Source of the DNA: Embleya hyalina
Lineage (GTDB): Bacteria > Actinomycetota > Actinomycetes > Streptomycetales > Streptomycetaceae
Length of the DNA: 64,000 nt
Reading direction: 5' to 3'
Assembly: GCF_003967355.1 (NCBI RefSeq)
Contig: NZ_BIFH01000013.1
Coordinates: 802,651 to 866,650, forward strand
Positions 12,962 to 30,530 of the stretch are shown in pieces. Each line of letters begins with the position of its first letter. The first letter of the stretch is position 1. Below the pieces are notes generated by a model that was not told where the DNA came from, did no database searches, and saw only the letters and a program-made list of their open reading frames with translations. Position numbers and translations under genes: made by a program.

Positions 12962-15286
12962 GTGCAGGTCACGACCATGATGCGCAGACGAATACCGGCC
13001 CTGACCGCCTTGGTGGTGCTGCTCCTCACCGCCGTCGCGTCCGCGCTGCCGTTACGCACCTCCGACCCCCGCCCCGCCTCCGCCCCCGTCGGCGACTTCT
13101 CGGCGGCCCGTGCGGTGGCCCGGCTCGACCGGATCGCGCGGGTTCCGCATCCGGCGGGTTCGGTCGCACAGTCGCAGGTGCGGGAGTATCTCGTCGGCGA
13201 GCTGCGGGATCTGGGGCTGCGGCCCGAGGTCCGGGACCGGGTCGCCGCCTCCGCCTCCGCCTCCGCCTCCGCCGATGACGACGACTCGACCATCCTCGGG
13301 TCCGTCTCCAACATCCACGCCACGATCCCCGGCGCGAAACCCACCGGCCGGGTGCTGCTCGTCGCCCACTACGACTCCGTGCCGATCGCTCCCGGCGCCG
13401 CCGACGACGGTGCCGGTGTCGCCGCGATCCTCGAAATCGCCCGGGCGCTGAAGACCGGACCGCAGCTTCGCAACGACCTCGAGATCCTGTTCACCGACGG
13501 CGAGGAGTCGGGGCTGCTCGGCGCACGGGCTTTCGTCGACGCCGAGGCGGGCACGCGCCGAGCCGCCGACCCTCGGCGGACCGTCGTGGTGAACCTGGAG
13601 GGCCGGGGCGCCTCCGGACCCGCCGTGATGTTCGAGATGGCGGGCACCGGGCTCGTGCCCGCCGTGCGAGCCTCCGGGGCCCTCACCACATCGTTCGCCG
13701 CGGCGATCTACGACCGGCTGCCCAACGACACCGACCTGACGGTCTTCGAAGAGGCCGGCATGCGGGGGCTCAACTTCGCCTTCATGGACGGCTCCGGGCA
13801 CTATCACACGACCCACGACGACGTTGCCCGGCTCGACCGCGCGAGCGTGCAGAGCATGGGGGACGCGGCACTCGCGGCGGTCCGGCGACTCGGCGGGAGC
13901 GACCTCTCCCGGGGTGGTTCGGACGCCACCTACTTCTCCCTGTTCGGCACGGTCGTGTCGTACCCGGCATGGCTGGTCCTGCCGCTCGCCGTGGTGACCC
14001 TCGCGGGCGTGGCCGTGCTGCCGTGGTTCGGCCGGCGGCGTGGGTTGTCCCCCGGCGGGGCCGGACGGGCCGCCGCGACTTTCCCGGTCATACCGATCGG
14101 CGCGGCGGTCGGCGGCCTGGCCGGATGGTGGGTACTGAGCCTGGCCCGACCGGACTTCGTGCTCGGTGGCGGCAGCGTGTATCACCTCGGCCGGTACGCG
14201 TGGGGCGAGGCGTTGCTGCTCCTGGTGCTGCTCGTCGCCTGGTATCGCCGGGCCCGCCGCAACGCGTCGCCGCTGGACGTCGTGGTGGGTGTGCTCGGCT
14301 GGTTTGCGTTGCTCGCCGTGGTCTGCGCGGTGCTGCTGCCCCAGGGCGCCTACCTCTTCACCTGGCCGGCGCTGATCGGGACGGCGGTCGTGGGCGTGAC
14401 GCTGAGGTTCACCGCCGTGGACTCCCCCTGGCGGGCGGTGACCGGAGCGCTGACCGCCGTACCTGCCGTGGCACTCGTCCTGCCGGTCGTGCTCCTGCTG
14501 CTGCCCGCCCTGGGACTCGAGCTCACCGCCGCACCACTGGTCCTCGCGGTACTGCCCGCGGCGCTGTTGCCCGGTCTCCTGGAACCCCTTCCCTCGCGCC
14601 GGGCGCTCACCGCCGGGATGCTCGCGGTGGCGGTGGCGGGTGCCGGCACGCTGGTCGTGGGTACGTCCCTCGACGGCTACAGCGCCGACGAGCCCCGGCC
14701 GGTCAGCCTCGGATACGTCCTGGAGTCCGACAGCGGAAAGGCCACCTGGGTCAGCCTCGGCGACACCTCCCAGCCCGCCGTCGGCAAGCTCCTCACGGAT
14801 GGATCGGCTCGCTACGACGACCGCGTCCCCCCGCTGGGCGGCGACGCACTCGCGAACGGCGCGGCCAGGCCCGCGCCTCTGGAAACACCGTCGACCACGA
14901 ACGTCTCGGTCGGCGAGGCCGACGGCGTACGTACGGTCCGGGTCCGCATCCAGGCCCCCGCGGGCACACACACCATCGACGTCCACGCCGACACCGGGGC
15001 CCACGAGATCCTCGACGCCACCGTCGCGGGCGTGCGGCTCGCCGGCGGTCCCAAGCGGGCACAGGGCGGCTGGGGCTGGAGCTTCGGCTACGCCGCCCCG
15101 CCCGCCGACGGCATCGACGTCGTCATCCGCGCCCGCGGCACGGGCGTCCTGCCGCTGCGCGTGGTCTCCACCACCGTCGGCCTGCCGGACGCGGCCGACC
15201 CGCCCGTCCTGGCCCCGGATCAGAGTTGGACGAGCTGGCCATCGGTCGCCGGACAGACCTTCGTCGTACGGACCTTCCGCCTCTGA
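12962..15286 (+). CDS. M28 family membrane-anchored zinc aminopeptidase
   Basis: A 774-residue protein. A signal-anchor (residues 5-28) is followed by an M28 catalytic domain to about residue 320 with the two-zinc ligands in AHYDS, GAADDGAG, TDGEESGLLG, NLEG and HTTHDD. Then come about eight membrane segments (about 335-560) and an extracellular beta-rich C-terminal domain of about 200 residues. This is the layout of Fxna/ER-type M28 proteases. Four GCCTCC repeats at 13247-13270 encode an Ala-Ser run before an acidic DDDD stretch. The GTG at 12962 has GAGG seven bases upstream; a TTG at 12956 and ATGs at 12977 are alternatives. It probably trims N-terminal residues from peptides outside the cell. 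Confidence 0.88.
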   Translation: MQVTTMMRRRIPALTALVVLLLTAVASALPLRTSDPRPASAPVGDFSAARAVARLDRIARVPHPAGSVAQSQVREYLVGELRDLGLRPEVRDRVAASASASASADDDDSTILGSVSNIHATIPGAKPTGRVLLVAHYDSVPIAPGAADDGAGVAAILEIARALKTGPQLRNDLEILFTDGEESGLLGARAFVDAEAGTRRAADPRRTVVVNLEGRGASGPAVMFEMAGTGLVPAVRASGALTTSFAAAIYDRLPNDTDLTVFEEAGMRGLNFAFMDGSGHYHTTHDDVARLDRASVQSMGDAALAAVRRLGGSDLSRGGSDATYFSLFGTVVSYPAWLVLPLAVVTLAGVAVLPWFGRRRGLSPGGAGRAAATFPVIPIGAAVGGLAGWWVLSLARPDFVLGGGSVYHLGRYAWGEALLLLVLLVAWYRRARRNASPLDVVVGVLGWFALLAVVCAVLLPQGAYLFTWPALIGTAVVGVTLRFTAVDSPWRAVTGALTAVPAVALVLPVVLLLLPALGLELTAAPLVLAVLPAALLPGLLEPLPSRRALTAGMLAVAVAGAGTLVVGTSLDGYSADEPRPVSLGYVLESDSGKATWVSLGDTSQPAVGKLLTDGSARYDDRVPPLGGDALANGAARPAPLETPSTTNVSVGEADGVRTVRVRIQAPAGTHTIDVHADTGAHEILDATVAGVRLAGGPKRAQGGWGWSFGYAAPPADGIDVVIRARGTGVLPLRVVSTTVGLPDAADPPVLAPDQSWTSWPSVAGQTFVVRTFRL

Positions 15287-15521: not shown

Positions 15522-17078
15522 ATGCATCGCAGAACGCTGACATTCGGGTCGGCCCTGGCCCTGTTGGCCGGCCTGGTCGTCGGCACCACCACGCCCTCGA
15601 ACGCGGCACCACCCCCGACGTCACCCGCCGCCGCCCGCGCCGCCGCGATCGACGCGGCCGACCGAGCCGTCACCGGCGCCTCGAGCGCACTCGTGAAGGC
15701 ACCCGGCGAGCGGTATCGACGGGCCATGGTGACCCCCTGGATCGACAACCTCTACTCGATCGCCTACACCCGCACCTATCGCGGCCTGCCCGTGGTCGGC
15801 GGCGACGCCGCCGTGTTGGCCGACGGTACCGGCCGGGTCCGGGCCGTGGAGACCGCCGACGGCCCGCGCATCGACGACGTGCCGACCGAACCGGCCGTGC
15901 CCGCCACCACCGCCGAGGCGAGCGCCCGCACCCGTCTCGCCGCGGTGGACCGGGTCGACCGACAGCGCCTGGTCGTACAACTCGCCCCCGACGCAGCCCA
16001 CTTGGCCTGGGAGACCGTACTGGTCGGCCGGAACGGGGACGCGCCGAGCAGGCTGCACGTGTACGTCGACGCCCGGACCGGAGCGGTGCTCGACGCCGCG
16101 ACCCACGACGCCGTGCGGGCGGGCACCGGGCACAGCAAGTGGAACGGCCCCGACCCGATCACCATTCCCACCACCGCCACCGGAAGCACCCACCTGATGC
16201 GCGACCCGTCCCGACCCGGCCTGAGTTGCGCCGACTACGGCGGCGGAACACTCACCAAGCCCGTCGACGACTGGGGCACCGGGAACCCCACCGCGATCGA
16301 GACCGGCTGTGTCGACGCGATGTGGGCCGTGCAGAAGCAGTGGGACATGCTCCGCGACTGGCTCGGCCGCAACGGTCACAAGGGCACCGGCGGCACCTAC
16401 CCGGTGGTGGTCGGATACCCGGACGTCAACGCCTACTTCGACGACACCAGGGTCTACATCGGCCACAACACCGCGAACGAGTGGATCGCCGCGATGGACG
16501 TCGTGGGCCACGAGTACGGCCACGGCATCGACCTGACCACCCCGGGCCACCCGTTCACCGAGCACGGCCTCACCGAGGGCACCGGGGACATCTTCGGCAC
16601 CCTCACCGAGTTCTACGCCGACGAACCCGCGCCGTACGACACCCCGGACTACACGATCGGCGAGACGGCCGACATCGTCGGCACGGGGCCGCTGCGGTAC
16701 ATGTACAACCCCGACATCCTCGGCCACCCCAACTGCTACTCGACACGGATCCCACCGATGGAGGAGCACAAGGCCACGGGCCCGCTGAACCACTGGTTCC
16801 ACCTGCTCGCCGAGGGCTCCCACCCCGGCGGCGGCAAGCCCGAGAGCCCGACCTGCAACGGCTCCACGGTCACCGGCGTGGGCATCAAGACGGCCGGCCG
16901 GGTCTTCTACGGCGGCCTGCTGCTGCGGCCGGCCAACACCGACTACCGGAAACTGCGCCGGATCACCCTCCAGGCGGCCAAGGTCCTCGATCCGACGTGC
17001 GGTGTATGGAAGTCCACCCGGAACGCCTGGAACGCGGTCTCGGTACCGGCCAACGCGGGGGACCCCGTCTGCCCGTGA
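15522..17078 (+). CDS. M4 family metallopeptidase (thermolysin-like), secreted
   Basis: A 518-residue secreted protease preproenzyme. It has a Sec signal peptide with cleavage near SNAAPP (about residue 29), an FTP/PepSY propeptide region (about 45-190), and a mature thermolysin domain with zinc motif HEYGH (about 329-333), third ligand glutamate in EGTGDIFG (about 355), and the catalytic histidine region NHWFHLLAEG. The usual ESxSD is EGTGD here, a common variation. Several cysteines (SCADY, TGCVD, NCYS, TCNG, TCGVW, PVCP) suggest disulfides. The ATG has GAGGAG six bases upstream. It secretes broad-specificity endopeptidase activity. Confidence 0.93.
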   Translation: MHRRTLTFGSALALLAGLVVGTTTPSNAAPPPTSPAAARAAAIDAADRAVTGASSALVKAPGERYRRAMVTPWIDNLYSIAYTRTYRGLPVVGGDAAVLADGTGRVRAVETADGPRIDDVPTEPAVPATTAEASARTRLAAVDRVDRQRLVVQLAPDAAHLAWETVLVGRNGDAPSRLHVYVDARTGAVLDAATHDAVRAGTGHSKWNGPDPITIPTTATGSTHLMRDPSRPGLSCADYGGGTLTKPVDDWGTGNPTAIETGCVDAMWAVQKQWDMLRDWLGRNGHKGTGGTYPVVVGYPDVNAYFDDTRVYIGHNTANEWIAAMDVVGHEYGHGIDLTTPGHPFTEHGLTEGTGDIFGTLTEFYADEPAPYDTPDYTIGETADIVGTGPLRYMYNPDILGHPNCYSTRIPPMEEHKATGPLNHWFHLLAEGSHPGGGKPESPTCNGSTVTGVGIKTAGRVFYGGLLLRPANTDYRKLRRITLQAAKVLDPTCGVWKSTRNAWNAVSVPANAGDPVCP

Positions 17079-18238: not shown

Positions 18239-18578
18239 CCGCCGGCACCCGTCTGCTCGCCGTTCAGAGCAACAGTCGGCCCCCGGGACCCGCCGTGCGG
18301 GACGCGTGGGAGGACTGAAATCCGAGCCACTCGCGCCCGCCTACGGCCGTTCCCATTCGTTCGTTGGTGAGGGCCGCGACGTGCCTTGCCCTCGATCGGC
18401 GCAATCCGGGGGTACGGCGGCGGGCCCGTGGTCCACTGATTTCACGATCATCGGATGCTCGTATTCTTCGCGCGTCGATCGCTCGTCGTCTCCCAGCGGC
18501 ATCGGGGCCGCGGCGGGCGATGATGATCACATCGTCCACCGGCGTGGTATGCGTGTGGTCCGATCGAGTTGGAGAGCC
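18239..18578. other. Intergenic region without clear gene
   Basis: About 340 bp between the secreted protein and the HDO-like gene. The sequence is slightly less GC-rich near 18440-18480 and may hold the promoter of the downstream gene. Nothing else is supported. Confidence 0.4.
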
Positions 18579-19616
18579 ATGAGCCGTGTCGTCGACAACG
18601 GAGATCCGCGAGTTGTCGGCCCCGCGCTACCGACGCCCCGCGGACCCTGGTCGGCCATCGTGGTCACCGCGCTGGCGCGATGCCCCTCCTCACGGGCGTT
18701 GCCGATGCCGGACACGGATGGGATCGACCCGTACGGCGAGGACCTGACTCTCGCCCTGCACACCTGCTACGAACTGCACTATCGAGGCTTCGACGGTGTC
18801 GATCCACTGTGGGAGTGGGATCCGGAACTGCTACGGCTACGGGCGGTGTTGGAGGGTGTGTTCCTGGCCGCGTTGCGTGCGGACACCCCCGGCGGTGACG
18901 ATGTCGCCGGTGCCCTGGACGCGTTGCTGGTGGAACCGGTTTCGGGCGACGGCGTCTCGCACTACCTTCGGGACTCGGCCCCCTGGGGAGCGATGCGCGA
19001 ATACTTTGCGCACCGTTCCGTCTACCAACTGAAGGAGGCGGACCCGTACGCCTGGGTGATCCCGCGTCTCCAGGGGCAGGCCAAGGCATCGCTGGTGACG
19101 GTCGAGTTCGACGAGTTCGGCGGCGGCCGTGCCGAACGCGTGCATGCCAGGCTTTTCGCCGACCTCATGGTCGGCGCCGGCATGTCCCCGAGGTATCTGC
19201 ACTACCTGGACGACGTGCCGGCACCGGCGATCGCGATCGTGAACCTGGTTTCGATGTTCGGGCTGCACCGGAGACTGCGCGGGGCACTGATCGGCAACTT
19301 CGCGACGGTGGAGATCACCAGCTCGCCGGGTGCGCAGCGGATGGTCCAGGCCCTTCGACGGCTGGGTGCCGCACGGGAGTGCGTGTTCTTCTTCACCGAG
19401 CACGTCGAGGCGGACGCCGTGCACGAACAGATCCTGCGTCGCGACGTGATCGGTGACCTCCTCCGTCGGGAACCCGACCTCGCCGAGGACGTCGTGTTCG
19501 GCATCGCGGCCACGCAGCTGTTGGAGGGCAGGCTGAGCGAACACCTGATGTCGGCCTGGCGCGGCGGCACGACATCGCTGCGCCGTCCGCTGCCGGAGGA
19601 CTCAGTCCGGACCTGA
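18579..19616 (+). CDS. Iron-containing redox enzyme, heme-oxygenase-like diiron (HDO) fold
   Basis: A 345-residue all-helical protein of the HDO type, related to UndA, BesC and the SznF central domain, which use a non-heme diiron site and O2 on small substrates. Likely ligands follow the family pattern: the acidic helix VTVEFDEFGGGRAERVHARLF and the C-terminal helix FFFTEHVEADAVHEQIL with its E-H-x3-D-x2-H arrangement. The ATG at 18579 has GGAGAG ahead. The 3' end overlaps the converging CDGSH gene by 15 bp. Its position facing an operon for two methyltransferases and an iron-sulfur protein suggests shared small-molecule chemistry. Family assignment is firm; the reaction is unknown. Confidence 0.85.
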   Translation: MSRVVDNGDPRVVGPALPTPRGPWSAIVVTALARCPSSRALPMPDTDGIDPYGEDLTLALHTCYELHYRGFDGVDPLWEWDPELLRLRAVLEGVFLAALRADTPGGDDVAGALDALLVEPVSGDGVSHYLRDSAPWGAMREYFAHRSVYQLKEADPYAWVIPRLQGQAKASLVTVEFDEFGGGRAERVHARLFADLMVGAGMSPRYLHYLDDVPAPAIAIVNLVSMFGLHRRLRGALIGNFATVEITSSPGAQRMVQALRRLGAARECVFFFTEHVEADAVHEQILRRDVIGDLLRREPDLAEDVVFGIAATQLLEGRLSEHLMSAWRGGTTSLRRPLPEDSVRT

Positions 19617-19895
19617 ATCCGTGGGCGGGGCCTCGGACACCCGACGGTCGCGTCGGCGGTGGCTGGTGTCGCAGAACGGATACCGTCGACTGCGTCGACA
19701 CACGCACAGGGCCACCACGCATCGGTCCGAGACGACGACCCGTCCGTCGTCGGTCACCACCTCGACCGGGCCTTCGACGAGGAGCGGTCCACCGGCGACC
19801 ACGGTGACCCGCCTGGGCTTCCCGTCGCGCGTCCCGGTGTTCGGGTTCGCCTTCCGACCCTGCGTCGAGTCATGGTTCGTGGATCGGTCGGTCAC
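19602..19895 (-). CDS. CDGSH iron-sulfur domain protein
   Basis: A 97-residue protein whose C-terminal half has the mitoNEET-type cluster motif: cysteines in CVVALCVC, then YPFCDTSH, matching the C-x-C-x(n)-CDxxH pattern of a 2Fe-2S cluster held by three Cys and one His. The N-terminal 25 residues are polar and low in structure. It should act as an electron or cluster carrier. It overlaps the upstream HemK-like gene by 26 bp and the converging HDO-like gene by 15 bp. Pairing with a diiron oxidase is functionally sensible, since such enzymes need electrons. Confidence 0.88.
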   Translation of the reverse strand: MTDRSTNHDSTQGRKANPNTGTRDGKPRRVTVVAGGPLLVEGPVEVVTDDGRVVVSDRCVVALCVCRRSRRYPFCDTSHRRRDRRVSEAPPTDSGPD

Positions 19896-20535
19896 CGCGG
19901 ATCACCACCAATTCCTCGTGACGTTGCCCCGCGTCGATGTGCCCTCGGTTTTCCAGCAGCGCGATCCGGCGGCTCATGACCGGACCGAAAGGAACGGTCC
20001 GTCTGGCCACCACCGCGGCCTTCAACCCTCCCCGGCGCAACAGGTTCACCGTGCTCTCCACCCCACACACGGCGGAATGGACGATCAACACCATCCCGCC
20101 GGGAGAGAGCATCCGGGGGGCGTTGACGCACAGGGGATCCAACAGGGCCCGACCGTTCGGAGCCGCGTCCCAGGCTCGGCTCGGTCCGCGCCGCGGGAGT
20201 TCCGGCCGTTCGGACGGCACGTAGGGCGGGTTGGCGAGGACCACGTCGAATCGCCGATTTCCGGGAAGTGTCAGCGCGTTGCGGCACTCGACACGGACCC
20301 GCAGTCCACGCACGCGGGAGTTGAACCGGGTCGCCAACGCGGCACGTCGCGAGATGTCCACGGCGGTGACGTGTCCCGCCCCGGCACCGACGGCAGCGAT
20401 GGCCAACGCGCCGGTACCCGTGCACAGGTCCAGGACACGCGCCGCCGCGGGGATTCCGGCGTCCTGCAATGCCTGGGCCAACAGCCACGTGTCCGCCTGA
20501 GGCCGGTACATCCCCGGGAGTCTCAGCAACCACAC
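19870..20535 (-). CDS. HemK/MTQ2-like SAM-dependent methyltransferase
   Basis: A 221-residue class I methyltransferase with SAM motif I VLDLCTGTGALAIAAV (about residues 34-49), motif II TAVDIS, and NPPYVPSERPEL (about 107-118). The NPPY tetrad marks enzymes that methylate amide or amine nitrogens, such as the N5-glutamine of release factors. It lacks the N-terminal helical domain of true PrmC, so another nitrogen substrate is possible. The start may be the GTG at 20535 or the ATG at 20511; neither has a strong ribosome site. It lies 39 bp after the EgtD-like gene and overlaps the CDGSH gene, so the three form an operon. Confidence 0.82.
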   Translation of the reverse strand: MWLLRLPGMYRPQADTWLLAQALQDAGIPAAARVLDLCTGTGALAIAAVGAGAGHVTAVDISRRAALATRFNSRVRGLRVRVECRNALTLPGNRRFDVVLANPPYVPSERPELPRRGPSRAWDAAPNGRALLDPLCVNAPRMLSPGGMVLIVHSAVCGVESTVNLLRRGGLKAAVVARRTVPFGPVMSRRIALLENRGHIDAGQRHEELVVIRGDRPIHEP

Positions 20536-20574
20536 GGCGCGGACCGCGGTTCGCGGGCGGCGACCCCGCCCGAG

Positions 20575-21588
20575 TCAGTTCGCATCGGCGGCGTGGGGGC
20601 GGTTGTGCGAACGGGTGAACAGGAAAACGCCGTACTGCCACGTCTCGTCGATCCACTCGCCGCGCAGATCCAGTCCCCGCGCGGCGACATCGGCCACGAA
20701 CCGCGAGCGGTCGAACTTGTGGGACAGCCCGACGTTGAGCCCGTCGCCATGCCGAAGACTCAGTTCGAGGCCCAATCCGTGCAACACCACGGATTGGGCC
20801 TCGGTCGCGTAGACGTGCGCTTGGACGGTGGCGCTCGCCTGGTCGTAGTGTGCCCGCGCGTGGAAGTTCCGCAGGTCGAAGTCGGCTCCGAAACGCCGGT
20901 TGAGATGGGCCAGATGATTGAGTCGGAACCGGGTGAAGGCGGATCGACCGCTCGGATCGTTGTAGCAGGCCTCCAGTACCGAGGCCGCTTTTCGCAGATC
21001 GACCGATACCAGAAAGCCGTCGCCGGGCCGAAGCGTGCCGGCGATCTCGCCGAGCAACGCTTCACGCTCCCGCGGCGTGGCGTTGCCCAGGTTGCTCCCG
21101 AGGAAGGCCACCACCAGCGGCTCGCGCCGGTCCTCCCGCAGCCGGGCCAGCCCCGCCTCGTACCTGCCCCACAACCCACGCACCCGCAGACCGGGCAGTG
21201 CGGTCGTCAGCTCGTGCCCGCTGCTCTCCAACATCTCGCGGCTGACGTCGATCGGAAGATAGTCGGTCACACGACGGTCGACACAGGCGGCCGGCAGCAG
21301 ACGGGTCTTCTTCGCGCTTCCGCTGCCCAACTCGGCGATTCGACCGCATCCGATCAGGTCGGCGATCTCTGCGGCATGGCGATCCAGCAACCCGTGCTCG
21401 ACCCGAGTGAGGTAGTAGTCGGGCAACTCGGTGATCGACTCGAACAGATCCGACCCGAGCGCGTCGTATCCGAAGTGAGGGGGAATCCGCGGTGGAGCCT
21501 CCCGCAGACCGGCCATGAGGGCCGACCGGTCGTCCCAGAAGGCCCCTCCGTCGTCGACGGGCACGATCTCGACCCGGTTCGGCGTCAT
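20575..21588 (-). CDS. EgtD-like amino acid betaine (N-alpha-trimethyl) methyltransferase
   Basis: A 337-residue SAM-dependent methyltransferase of the EgtD family (ergothioneine pathway, histidine N-alpha-trimethylation). Family blocks are clear: FGYDALGSDLFESITELPDYYLTR, the SAM loop ELGSGSAKKTRLLP, YLPIDVS, AFLGSNLGNATPRE and SHKF near the C-terminus. By hand alignment to my recollection of mycobacterial EgtD, the two residues that read the histidine side chain are changed: Met252 corresponds to Ala (in ATVQAHV) and Glu282 to Gly (in NVGLSHKF). A substrate other than histidine is therefore plausible. No egtB, egtA or egtC is adjacent. The start at 21588 gives the usual N-terminus; GGGA precedes it. 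Confidence 0.83.
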   Translation of the reverse strand: MTPNRVEIVPVDDGGAFWDDRSALMAGLREAPPRIPPHFGYDALGSDLFESITELPDYYLTRVEHGLLDRHAAEIADLIGCGRIAELGSGSAKKTRLLPAACVDRRVTDYLPIDVSREMLESSGHELTTALPGLRVRGLWGRYEAGLARLREDRREPLVVAFLGSNLGNATPREREALLGEIAGTLRPGDGFLVSVDLRKAASVLEACYNDPSGRSAFTRFRLNHLAHLNRRFGADFDLRNFHARAHYDQASATVQAHVYATEAQSVVLHGLGLELSLRHGDGLNVGLSHKFDRSRFVADVAARGLDLRGEWIDETWQYGVFLFTRSHNRPHAADAN

Positions 21589-22663
21589 CGTGATTTCCCG
21601 ACTCGTCGGGCCGCGCTCGTTTCGCGGCTGCGATTCCCATCCGTCGGGCCCGTATACCGGAGAACCCTCGGACAGTGATCGATCAGTTACCCTTGGGAGT
21701 GTCCCACTGTGTGGAAGCACGCAAACCATCCACGGTCGAGGGCCCGTTCGCGGATGTGTTCGGGTTGGGTCCCGGCGGGTCGGGTGCCGGCGTGGCGGCC
21801 GGATCCGGCGCGGTGTCGACAGGCGCGGGTGACGGCCTTGGCGGGTGGTGGGGAATCGGTGGTGCGGGGGTGGTCGGGTGGTGTGGTGTCGAGGAGCGGG
21901 GGTGTGGTTTGCCGGGCTCTCTCGGTGATGTGGACTGCACAGTGTGTGCCGGACGCGCGTTCGGCCGGTGGGAAACGGACACGTGGTTTCACCGTGTGGC
22001 GGGTGTGTCGTGAGGGTGCGTGTGCGGTTGGAGGTGGCGGTGTGTGACGTCGGTCGGTGTCGACCTCGGCATCGCCGCAGGGCACGGCACGCGAGGTGGA
22101 TTCGGGTGGCCGGTCCGCACCCGATGTGGCACCGCTGAGTAAGCGGCGCGGCCGGTGCGGGCGTCGGTGATCTCGGTCGCGGGTTCGGCTCGATTTATGG
22201 CTGTCCAAGTGTCGCGTATCGGACACAATGCGACGTGACCGCCTGACGGTCGATCGCGCAGATCACCTTTTCCGGCTCCCGCCGCCCGCGTCGGGCGACG
22301 AGTCCGGAACTCCACCACAGCAACGACGGCTTCCCGCGTCGATCGGGTCCGCGACCCCCCGAAACGCATTCGTGAGGGATCGGGGCCGGGGCGGGAAGCG
22401 GTTTCCCGTACAGCGCGCGTTCGTCCCCTCCGACCTTCGGTCGCGCGTTCGTGTTCGGCTTCCGGCCCTGGCGCCGGCAGCCGATGTCACCGGGTCCTCG
22501 TCCCCATGTCGATTCGGCTGTGCCCTCGGGCCGTGACGCCCCACCGTTGTTCGGAGACGCATTCCCGGCTGCCGCCCGGTTCCCATCGCGGCGGCGGTCG
22601 ATCGCACGCGAGGAAACCCCCTCCGGTGTCGGGGAATGCCGACGCCGCCCTCAGGAGGCATGC
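21589..22663. other. Long intergenic region with G/T strand skew
   Basis: About 1.07 kb without a convincing gene. From about 21730 to 22060 the plus strand is strongly G and T rich, with four G-runs at 21843-21878 that could form a quadruplex. Several frames are open but have biased, low-complexity translations. Promoters for the EgtD-like operon (left) and the carboxypeptidase (right) must lie here. Confidence 0.45.
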
Positions 22664-25010
<2,347 letters not shown>

Positions 25011-29081: not shown

Positions 29082-29312
29082 GCCCTCCACGATGCGCGGC
29101 ACCGGCCGGCGGAACCAGGGGACGTCATCCCCCGGGTCGCCCGCCCGCCCGACCGGACGCACATGTGCCGAACCCACCCATGAAACGCATCGCCGCCGCC
29201 GAGTGTGGCCTGCTGTCGCCAGTGGCGAAGGCCGGCCGCCATCGAGCGATACCGGGGAGTAGAACCGAGTCGCGTCGTCGTGACGCGACTCGAACTCTCC
29301 CTGGGAGCAATG

Positions 29313-30530
29313 ATGTTCAGGCGAATACCCGGCAAGCTCGCGACCGCCGCCCTGGCTGCGGCGAGCATCTTGGTCACGGTTCCCGGCGCGGCCTCGGCGC
29401 AGGCCGACATCGCGCGGACGCCGTCCTCGGCCCCCGAAGGCCGCGTCGTGGCCGCGGCCCGTCCCATCCCGGGCCGGTACATCGTGGTTCTCCGCGAAGG
29501 CGCACACGGCGCGGCGGACGTACACGAGCGCTCCGTCGCGCTGGCCGGGTCGTACGGCGGCAAGGTGCGGCAGACGTACGGCTCCGCGTTGTCGGGGTAC
29601 GCCGCCGACATGAGCGAGAGCCAGGCGCGCCGGGTCGCCGCGGATCCGCGGGTCGCGTTCGTGGAGCAGGACGGTGTGGAGGAGGTCACCGACACGCAGA
29701 GCGACCCGCCGTCGTGGGGCCTGGATCGGGTGGACCAGGCGAAGCTGCCGCTCGATCGCAGCTACACCTACCCCAACGGGGCGGCGAACGTGACCGCCTA
29801 CGTGATCGACACCGGCATATGGGTGTCGCACGGTCAGTTCGAGGGGCGGGCGAGTGTCGGCTTCGACGCCGTCGGCGACGGCAACGACGGAATCGACTGC
29901 AACGGTCACGGGACCCACGTCGCGGGCATTCTCGGCGGCCGTGACTACGGCATCGCCAAGCAGGTCAAGCTGGTCGCGGTACGGGTGATCGGTTGTGGGA
30001 ACACGGGCAGCACGTCCACGACGATCCAGGGCGTCGACTGGGTGACGGCACACGCGACCAAGCCGGCCGTGGCCAACGTGAGCCTGCGCGGCGGGGTGAG
30101 CGCGGCCAAGGACGCGGCGTTCCGCAGGTCGATCGCGGCGGGGATCACCTATGTCGCCGGCTCGGGCAACGACAGCGCGAACGCCTGTGACTACTCGCCG
30201 GGTCGGATCCCCGAGGTGATCACGGTGCAAAGCTCCGACGCCTCCGATCGGCGGGCGTCCACCTCGAACTACGGCAAATGTACGGACCTGTTCGCTCCCG
30301 GGACGAACATCGTCTCGGCGTGGAAGGGTGGCGACACCGCCACGCGGACGGCCAGTGGAACGTCCATGGCGACGCCACATGTCACCGGCGCGGCGGCGAT
30401 CCATCTGTCCGCGCACCCCACCGCGACGCCGGCAGAGGTACAGGCGGCGTTGATCGACGCGGCCACGCCGGGCCGGATCACGAGCCCGGGTGCCGGGTCG
30501 CCGAACCGGCTCCTTCGGGTCGTCGGGTAG
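29313..30530 (+). CDS. S8 family subtilisin-like serine protease, secreted
   Basis: A 405-residue secreted protease of the proteinase K type. It has a signal peptide (cleavage near AASAQA), an I9 propeptide inhibitor (about residues 50-125, RYIVVLREGAHG...VAFVEQDG), and a catalytic domain with Asp in VIDTGI, His in GHGTHVAG and Ser in SGTSMATPHV. The oxyanion-hole Asn is in GSGNDSANACDYSPG. The second of two adjacent ATGs (29313) has the better GGGAG spacing. A strong terminator follows nine bases after the stop. Confidence 0.93.
   Translation: MFRRIPGKLATAALAAASILVTVPGAASAQADIARTPSSAPEGRVVAAARPIPGRYIVVLREGAHGAADVHERSVALAGSYGGKVRQTYGSALSGYAADMSESQARRVAADPRVAFVEQDGVEEVTDTQSDPPSWGLDRVDQAKLPLDRSYTYPNGAANVTAYVIDTGIWVSHGQFEGRASVGFDAVGDGNDGIDCNGHGTHVAGILGGRDYGIAKQVKLVAVRVIGCGNTGSTSTTIQGVDWVTAHATKPAVANVSLRGGVSAAKDAAFRRSIAAGITYVAGSGNDSANACDYSPGRIPEVITVQSSDASDRRASTSNYGKCTDLFAPGTNIVSAWKGGDTATRTASGTSMATPHVTGAAAIHLSAHPTATPAEVQAALIDAATPGRITSPGAGSPNRLLRVVG

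Follow-up and report, generated by a model that had tools for sequence, protein, structure and literature searches.

A small cassette of four genes, which recurs in distantly related actinobacteria, probably builds a modified amino acid. It consists of a heme-oxygenase-like diiron oxidase (HDO), a CDGSH-type [2Fe-2S] protein, a methyltransferase of the HemK2/MTQ2 type, and a methyltransferase related to EgtD; the first three constitute a core that is widespread among actinobacteria and forms the deep unit of the locus, with the EgtD-like gene being a rare partner and a YbdK ligase gene its alternative in the fourth position. We tentatively favor, at somewhat less than an even chance, a reading in which the cassette is exchangeable and yields an N-oxygenated, N-methylated, and α-amine-capped amino acid, with the CDGSH protein acting as the electron donor. 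HDOs carry out unusual oxidations; according to the accessible text of PMC13108848, there are more than 10,000 of them, of which only around a dozen have been functionally validated. A literature search over titles and abstract openings, with most subscription papers outside its scope, found no paper describing this gene set.

The window, that is, the whole stretch of 64,000 nucleotides of Embleya hyalina DNA that was analyzed, carries the HDO gene on the plus strand (18579..19616), with GGAGAG ahead of an ATG at 18579 and the stop at 19616; it encodes 345 aa and matches PF14518 (1.5e-57). Tail-to-tail, it overlaps by 15 bp the minus-strand gene of the 97-aa CDGSH protein (19602..19895; PF09360, 9e-17), which overlaps by 26 bp the minus-strand gene of the HemK2/MTQ2-type SAM methyltransferase (19870..20535; 221 aa), and after a 39-bp gap there follows, on the same strand, the gene of the EgtD-like Nα-methyltransferase (20575..21588; PF10017, 2.7e-86), which belongs to a separate clade that we name EgtD2. 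An earlier note on this DNA had listed the same four genes, gap, and overlaps, all borne out by these coordinates, and its four family assignments agree with the profile matches. A gene caller based on GC position called the HemK and HDO genes of the window short and missed the CDGSH gene, and core genes were for this reason counted by tblastn in the surveys described below.

The 3-His/3-carboxylate ligand set of the HDO family, which sits on three core helices, is present in the window HDO as the candidate diiron ligands E153, E179, H189, H275, D279, and H282, kept in 167/167 or 168/168 different matched stretches covering each position (the counts here, and those for the CDGSH and HemK proteins, are of distinct stretches, among which truncated copies of a single gene appear), and their spacing is that seen in the alignment with SznF. 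The predicted model of the protein (pLDDT 90.3) has a heme-oxygenase-like helical fold whose best match is HrmI (Z 33.0, with an rmsd of 2.4 across 304 residues), followed by SznF (Z 29.0), RohS (27.9), and the P. aeruginosa protein 3bjd (25.0), with lower scores for FlcD (Z 23.9), CADD (19.6), UndA (16.8), and BesC (16.2); the eleven top VIA-align rows are HrmI, SznF, and RohS. Profile matches to solved HDOs reached 1.4e-15 for RohS, 1.8e-15 for SznF, and 3.4e-15 for HrmI, and were weaker for FlcD (0.0018) and BesC (0.0041). The enzyme is thus predicted, by likeness in profile and modeled fold, to be an N-oxygenase, being nearer to that group than to HDOs that act on carbon chains by cleavage or desaturation, and its identity to HrmI of about 20–22% is insufficient to fix the reaction. 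The earlier note had described HDO enzymes as cleaving or hydroxylating amino-acid-like substrates; its family assignment stands, and the likeness is specifically to N-oxygenases. An FlcD-, UndA-, BesC-, or PolF-like assignment ranked below the N-oxygenases and was not adopted, with chemistry of those kinds still conceivable for this protein.

HrmI, SznF, and RohS, from the hormaomycin, streptozotocin, and azomycin pathways, respectively, belong to the same structural subgroup of HDOs as the window protein. Unlike those pathways, the cassette has no cupin domain, PF14518 being the only Pfam match in the HDO and no SznF-type C-terminal cupin being found in it, and it adds the CDGSH protein and the HemK2-type and EgtD-type methyltransferases. 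What we infer from these likenesses is a pathway in which the HDO would bind a diiron centre and N-oxygenate a side-chain nitrogen of a substrate derived from an amino acid, most likely an amine or guanidine of the lysine or arginine type. The family is common in the group to which the host belongs, with matches at E<=1e-50 in 93 of the 121 genomes of its taxonomic family.

The linkage of the core holds across separate lineages. Among 111 HDO loci, which form a non-random sample, a CDGSH gene is found no farther than 2 kb from the HDO gene in 98 and a HemK gene in 95, and all three are linked in 89 even though gene order and orientation vary. This sample includes 19 added loci that were partly picked for a seemingly missing partner or as outliers and whose genomes may duplicate those of a set of 80 loci, as well as 6 loci from the genus g246 picked for carrying EgtD2 and 5 plasmid matches; four loci are shorter than 8 kb, and two pairs (L118/L126 and L185/L186) come from one genome each. 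In the 68 long loci (>15 kb) from the best 80 of at least 549 HDO relatives, a choice that over-represents close relatives, the CDGSH gene was found in 68/68 and the HemK gene in 66/68, and in a second set of 14 loci the counts were 14/14 and 11/14. Neither gene was found (E<=1e-12) in any of 40 control windows of 17 kb from actinobacterial genomes, and chance adjacency of the three genes was rejected on this ground; the control positions were round coordinates, most of them in members of the host's family, and some of the genomes lack an HDO. Around the core, transporter and tailoring genes come and go, none of them being constant, which is a point against a biosynthetic reading. Rieske, FAD-Rieske, and FMN-reductase genes are occasional neighbors, and a dimethylargininase gene between YbdK and HDO in Kitasatospora, considered as a hint of arginine chemistry, was set aside as occurring in only one of the loci then examined.

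The CDGSH protein, for which PF09360 is the only Pfam match, carries the three-Cys/one-His cluster ligands in the motif C64-x-C66-x8-C75-D-T-S-H79, with CDTSH replacing CDGSH; C64, C66, and C75 occur in 159/159 different HDO-linked matched stretches and H79 in 152/152. It may serve as the dedicated electron donor of the HDO and, to our knowledge, would on that reading be the first CDGSH protein to do so for a diiron oxygenase. Work on other HDOs has employed chemical mediators, among them phenazine methosulfate, according to the accessible text of PMC13185094 and PMC10724926. A dedicated redox partner has a precedent in MboA/MboB of the mangotoxin system, where the HDO is likewise encoded with a 2Fe-2S partner; MboB is described in the same accessible text as a flavin and Fe2S2 reductase using NAD(P)H (PMC13185094), and the cassette has the 97-aa CDGSH protein instead.

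The HemK2-like protein scores above the TIGR00537 HemK2/MTQ2 cut-off (93.3 bits against 87) and consists of the catalytic domain only. Its N102-P-P-Y105 motif is kept in 134/134 different HDO-linked matched stretches covering it, and NPPY together with W-x5-G-R is common to it and N6AMT1 (HemK2/MTQ2). We know of no HemK2/MTQ2 relative of known function that methylates small molecules rather than proteins, which counts against the reading that we favor; release factors absent from bacteria are the targets of the archaeal and eukaryotic members, whereas the cassette protein is bacterial and tied to an HDO. The NPPY motif is presumably of the same kind as NPPF. Methyltransferases with NPPF act on planar amines, PsiM excepted, as far as the accessible text of PMC10978996 goes. 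By analogy with SznF, which acts on an N-methylated amino acid, Nω-methylarginine, the HemK2-like enzyme could place a methyl group on a planar guanidine or amide nitrogen of the compound that the HDO oxygenates.

EgtD2 shares the Methyltransf_33 family with EgtD, and the alternative partner YbdK falls in the GCS2 family, like EgtA. With 264 bits, the window protein falls short of the 290.9 that TIGR03438 requires for egtD, three further clade members score 231.4, 256.4, and 269.6, and the canonical EgtD of the host reaches 381.2. In M. smegmatis EgtD numbering, M252 is replaced by Ala and E282, which we take to be the imidazole-recognition residue, by Gly; position 282 is Gly in 13/13 aligned clade members versus Glu in 4/4 canonical EgtD proteins, and Y39, F47, Y56, N166, Y206, and S284 are kept. 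EgtA, the EgtB domains, EgtC, and EgtD are encoded together elsewhere in the host genome (G000:C33), and egtA, egtB, and egtC are absent from the cassette. The separate and complete egtABCD set and the loss of M252 and E282 led us to reject ergothioneine synthesis by the cassette, in agreement with the earlier note, which had reached this view from the missing egtA, egtB, and egtC.

EgtD2 is rare. With the host included each time, it was found in 2/121 genomes of the family (E<1e-100), 1/293 of the order (E<=1e-80), and 7/394 of the class (E<=1e-75), and in 100 loci taken regardless of EgtD2 (101 minus L169, which has no HDO) an EgtD-like gene lies near the HDO in only one, which rules it out as a constant partner. 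The four-gene set nevertheless recurs. A block of the window (18504..21616, no strand), bounded 75 bp before the HDO start and 28 bp before the EgtD2 start, matches a 1.6-Mb plasmid of Streptomyces sp. NBC_01237 that carries the same four genes (blastn, 76.7% over 3159 columns), with no further blastn match between the window and a 17-kb stretch of the plasmid. In g246, another genus, the order is HemK-CDGSH-HDO-EgtD2 in one operon; HDO and EgtD2 are adjacent in all 16 genomes carrying EgtD2 (E<=1e-75), and all four genes were present in 14/14 loci inspected. A quick tree built from 70 rows places the HDOs accompanied by EgtD2 at two or more separate positions. The four-gene grouping of the earlier note is upheld as two arrangements in distant genomes, while its own refuting condition, that the four are seldom neighbors in related genomes, holds for actinobacteria at large. 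One locus (L089), where the CDGSH gene is followed by no more than a remnant of the HemK end, was left out of the four-gene cases. Window positions 21956–24004 match a genome of the same genus (G004) at 93%, in a 19-kb stretch without the four genes; this comparison was rejected as evidence of an insertion or empty site, the likeness ending on both sides and G004 having its own core elsewhere.

The same distribution bears on two other readings. EgtD2 could be a neighbor by chance or selfish transfer beside a self-sufficient three-gene core, as its rarity would suggest, together with one genome (G031) in which an EgtD2 (78–79%) lies on a 5.8-kb contig without the core, the core being on another contig; the retention of the four genes in two arrangements and the unbroken HDO–EgtD2 adjacency in g246 argue against this, and we regard it as very improbable. 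The order implied by the earlier note, with EgtD2 acting first, seems improbable as well; in the version considered here, EgtD2 would turn an aromatic amino acid into its betaine (tryptophan betaine, for example) for later oxidation by the HDO, and HemK2 would act elsewhere. It draws on the changes of M252 to Ala or Gly and E282 to Gly, which resemble the M252V/E282A variant of M. smegmatis EgtD that reportedly accepts tryptophan, but the core lacks EgtD2 in 99 of the 100 loci, so that a betaine cannot be its substrate in every case, and the N-oxygenase kin of the HDO use aliphatic amines, guanidines, or 2-aminoimidazole.

In the reading that we favor, the α-amine cap would be added here by EgtD2 through trimethylation and in many other loci by YbdK through a gamma-glutamyl-type ligation. 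YbdK, assigned to TIGR02050 in the one locus tested, is the fourth partner in 33 of the 111 loci; 26 of the YbdK genes sit no more than 300 bp from the HDO gene, 25 of them upstream and in the same orientation. None of the 111 loci has both YbdK and EgtD2, a count that represents few lineages, and neither lies within 2 kb in 70/111, so that the capping step would be dispensable in places or encoded elsewhere. The EgtD2 of G031, apart from its core, likewise counts against this reading.

The main competing explanation, which we consider rather unlikely, is a stress defense without a metabolite. When cells dry out or suffer oxidative stress, the HDO and CDGSH proteins would consume O2, peroxide, or iron; the HemK-like enzyme would have a protein as its target, and EgtD2 would separately add an antioxidant betaine. 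Stress-related neighbors do occur: the 68 long loci from the best 80 of at least 549 contain hemerythrin in 12, a SigB-like sigma factor in 10, and an RsbW-like gene in 9, versus 0/40 controls for each, a contrast that is partly circular since the probes were derived from the same HDO loci, and the second set of 14 loci gave hemerythrin once and neither the sigma nor the RsbW probe. SpoIIE, STAS, CsbD, and gas-vesicle genes are also found in annotated HDO loci. According to the accessible text of PMC13232832, DtpC, an HDO of Acinetobacter baumannii, confers protection from drying and from oxidative stress and requires its metal ligands; its six predicted ligands and E-x9-H spacing are like those of the cassette HDO, but it is encoded with the catalase katE, and the main text makes no mention of CDGSH. 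A stress role is compatible with a metabolite, however, the HDOs studied so far being enzymes of small-molecule biosynthesis (PMC13232832, accessible text), and a metabolite would better explain why YbdK and EgtD2, two enzymes that can act on the amines of amino acids, take each other's place.

More speculatively, and with considerable doubt, the cassette may define a widespread and as yet undescribed class of actinobacterial small molecules. These would be amino acids that are both N-oxygenated and N-methylated, produced by an HDO that draws on a CDGSH protein and completed at the α-amine by one of two exchangeable caps (a quaternary betaine from EgtD2 or a gamma-glutamyl-type amide from YbdK), and they would act as stress or redox metabolites alongside ergothioneine. 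For a large conserved HDO family, the finding provides partners constant enough for guessing the chemistry, including a candidate native electron donor, and the two alternative fourth enzymes, EgtD2 and YbdK, hint at the kind of product and render the question testable.

The four genes form a real and recurrent set, the base of which is a widespread, uncharacterised core, and the positions, gap and overlaps that the earlier note had read from the window are borne out on its sequence. The set consists of a heme-oxygenase-like diiron oxidase (HDO; 18579-19616, plus strand), assigned to PF14518 as an iron-containing redox enzyme of heme-oxygenase fold (Pfam/NCBIfam), followed on the minus strand by a CDGSH gene (19602-19895; PF09360, Pfam), a gene for a HemK2/MTQ2-type methyltransferase whose TIGR00537 score exceeds the cut-off (19870-20535; NCBIfam), and a gene for a Methyltransf_33 protein, here EgtD2, that scores under the curated egtD cut-off (20575-21588; Pfam/NCBIfam). 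No description of the four together was found in the literature searched. Five peptidase genes of different families surround them, namely M28 (12962-15286), M4 (15726-17078), M14 (22745-23995), S1 trypsin-like (24060-25010) and S8 with an I9 propeptide (29205-30530), and a 2-kb island carrying the M14 gene (21956-24004) is 93% identical to the same-genus genome G004, both flanks being unlike.

Within the family to which the window belongs, 99 of 121 genomes have an HDO relative at E<=0.001, and 93 still do at E<=1e-50; at phylum scale the figure is 49 of 296 genomes at E<=1e-40. The best 80 of at least 549 relatives in named genomes come from, among others, Streptomyces, Nocardia, Mycobacterium, Mycolicibacterium, Amycolatopsis and Lentzea. 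In a non-random sample of 111 loci, CDGSH lies within 2 kb of HDO in 98, HemK in 95, both in 89 and neither in 7; an earlier set of 100 loci gave 91 and 86 within 3 kb, long loci among the best 80 relatives 68/68 and 66/68, and 14 additional loci 14 and 11, while neither gene appeared in 40 control windows. Order and orientation of the core genes vary across the 100-locus set, which points to selection for keeping them linked. Such free reshuffling is unusual given so tight a linkage: HDO, HemK and CDGSH are co-directional in L019, L020 and L032 and convergent in L004 and L189. Among the more distant loci L044-L059 (16 in all, each some 4 kb long), 10 show CDGSH and 3 show HemK, so the HDO-CDGSH link looks the older on this comparison. 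One Pseudonocardiales MAG (L089:6170-6470) carries HDO and CDGSH genes and then a mere HemK remnant, past which the DNA is unrelated and by eye resembles the start of a PLP-dependent decarboxylase. Seven loci (L107:11706-13061 and six others) share a conserved ORF cluster, whose median distance to HDO is about 4.7 kb and which putatively resembles Orn/Lys/Arg decarboxylases (named by eye). The E. hyalina genome also holds a second, distant HDO-like match (L212, G000:C31:127656-128117; 34% over 152 residues, E 3.4e-5).

All six candidate metal ligands of HDO are kept in every matched stretch covering them. A 49-sequence profile picked up RohS, SznF and HrmI near 1e-15, with FlcD and BesC reaching only 0.002-0.004, and the structure model (pLDDT 90.3) ranks HrmI (Z 33.0), SznF (29.0) and RohS (27.9) above the P. 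aeruginosa protein 3bjd (25.0), FlcD (23.9), CADD (19.6), UndA (16.8) and BesC (16.2). HrmI oxidises the side-chain amine of lysine and SznF oxidises Nomega-methylarginine (PMC13108848), and RohS oxidises 2-aminoimidazole with PMS and NADH (PMC10724926); by analogy with these substrates the likeliest site of oxidation is a side-chain amine or guanidine, likeness being no proof. The CDGSH protein retains its full set of four cluster ligands, and because its linkage is constant we infer that it feeds HDO; the authors of the MboA/MboB study regard these two as what may be the first pairing of an HDO with a dedicated redox partner (PMC13185094).

EgtD2 retains six residues of M. smegmatis EgtD, namely Y39, F47, Y56, N166, Y206 and S284 (numbered on the 4uy5 alignment). 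Position M252 is A or G and E282 is G in 13/13 aligned members of its clade, against M and E in all four canonical EgtDs; an M252V/E282A variant of EgtD reportedly accepts tryptophan. The canonical EgtD of the same genome stands elsewhere (G000:C33), beside EgtA, EgtB domains and EgtC. The HemK-like protein, far from its next paralogues in the genome (35% identity), carries NPPY in each of the 134 stretches that span the motif, and enzymes with NPPY belong together with those that have NPPF. The latter target planar amines, with PsiM a noted exception (PMC10978996).

EgtD2 is a rare addition to the widespread core: of 100 loci sampled irrespective of its presence, the window alone has it near HDO. 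A direct EgtD2 search led to a 1.6-Mb Streptomyces plasmid and to one other genus (g246). The plasmid matches window 18504-21616 at 76.7% identity, and because the alignment ends at both cassette edges the set appears to be an exchangeable unit. Within g246, EgtD2 is present in 16 of 40 genomes at E<=1e-75 (HDO in 22 at E<=1e-40) and adjoins HDO in all 16; in three more g246 genomes, whose HDO is similar, a laxer search placed an EgtD-family match beside it in G1014 and G1022, and none beside it in G1023. The order HemK, CDGSH, HDO, EgtD2 on a single strand is uniform across the 14 g246 loci examined. The same-genus genome G031 has an EgtD2 (L169:2245-3225, 79% identity) on a short contig that lacks the core, between putative citrate synthase-like and beta-lactamase-like genes (named by eye), the HDO core being on a different contig.

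An alternative fourth partner, the GCS2-family ligase YbdK (profile match; PGAP name), is near HDO in 33 of the 111 loci and within 300 bp in 26, upstream on the same strand in 25 of these. YbdK and EgtD2 occur together in none of the 111, an exclusion that rests on few lineages. In a quick HDO tree, the window clusters with the plasmid and a Pseudonocardiales MAG within a YbdK-bearing set, and g246 forms a separate group. Since either enzyme is able to modify an amino acid at its alpha-amine, we infer that each would cap the same product. In Kitasatospora sp. NBC_00039, YbdK and HDO flank a dimethylargininase gene (L191:5100-5921; PGAP name; Pfam DDAH_eukar), which might hint at arginine chemistry.

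The shared metabolic pathway proposed in the earlier note gains from the recurrence of the four genes and, as refined here, is plausible rather than proven. A rival reading, less probable than the metabolite one, is that the core protects directly under stress: of the 68 long loci, 12 carry hemerythrin, 10 SigB-like and 9 RsbW-like genes, and none of 40 controls does, and DtpC, an HDO, has a part in drying survival (PMC13232832); the 14 additional loci yielded one hemerythrin and neither SigB-like nor RsbW-like genes. A stress metabolite would be compatible with both the metabolite and the protective readings.
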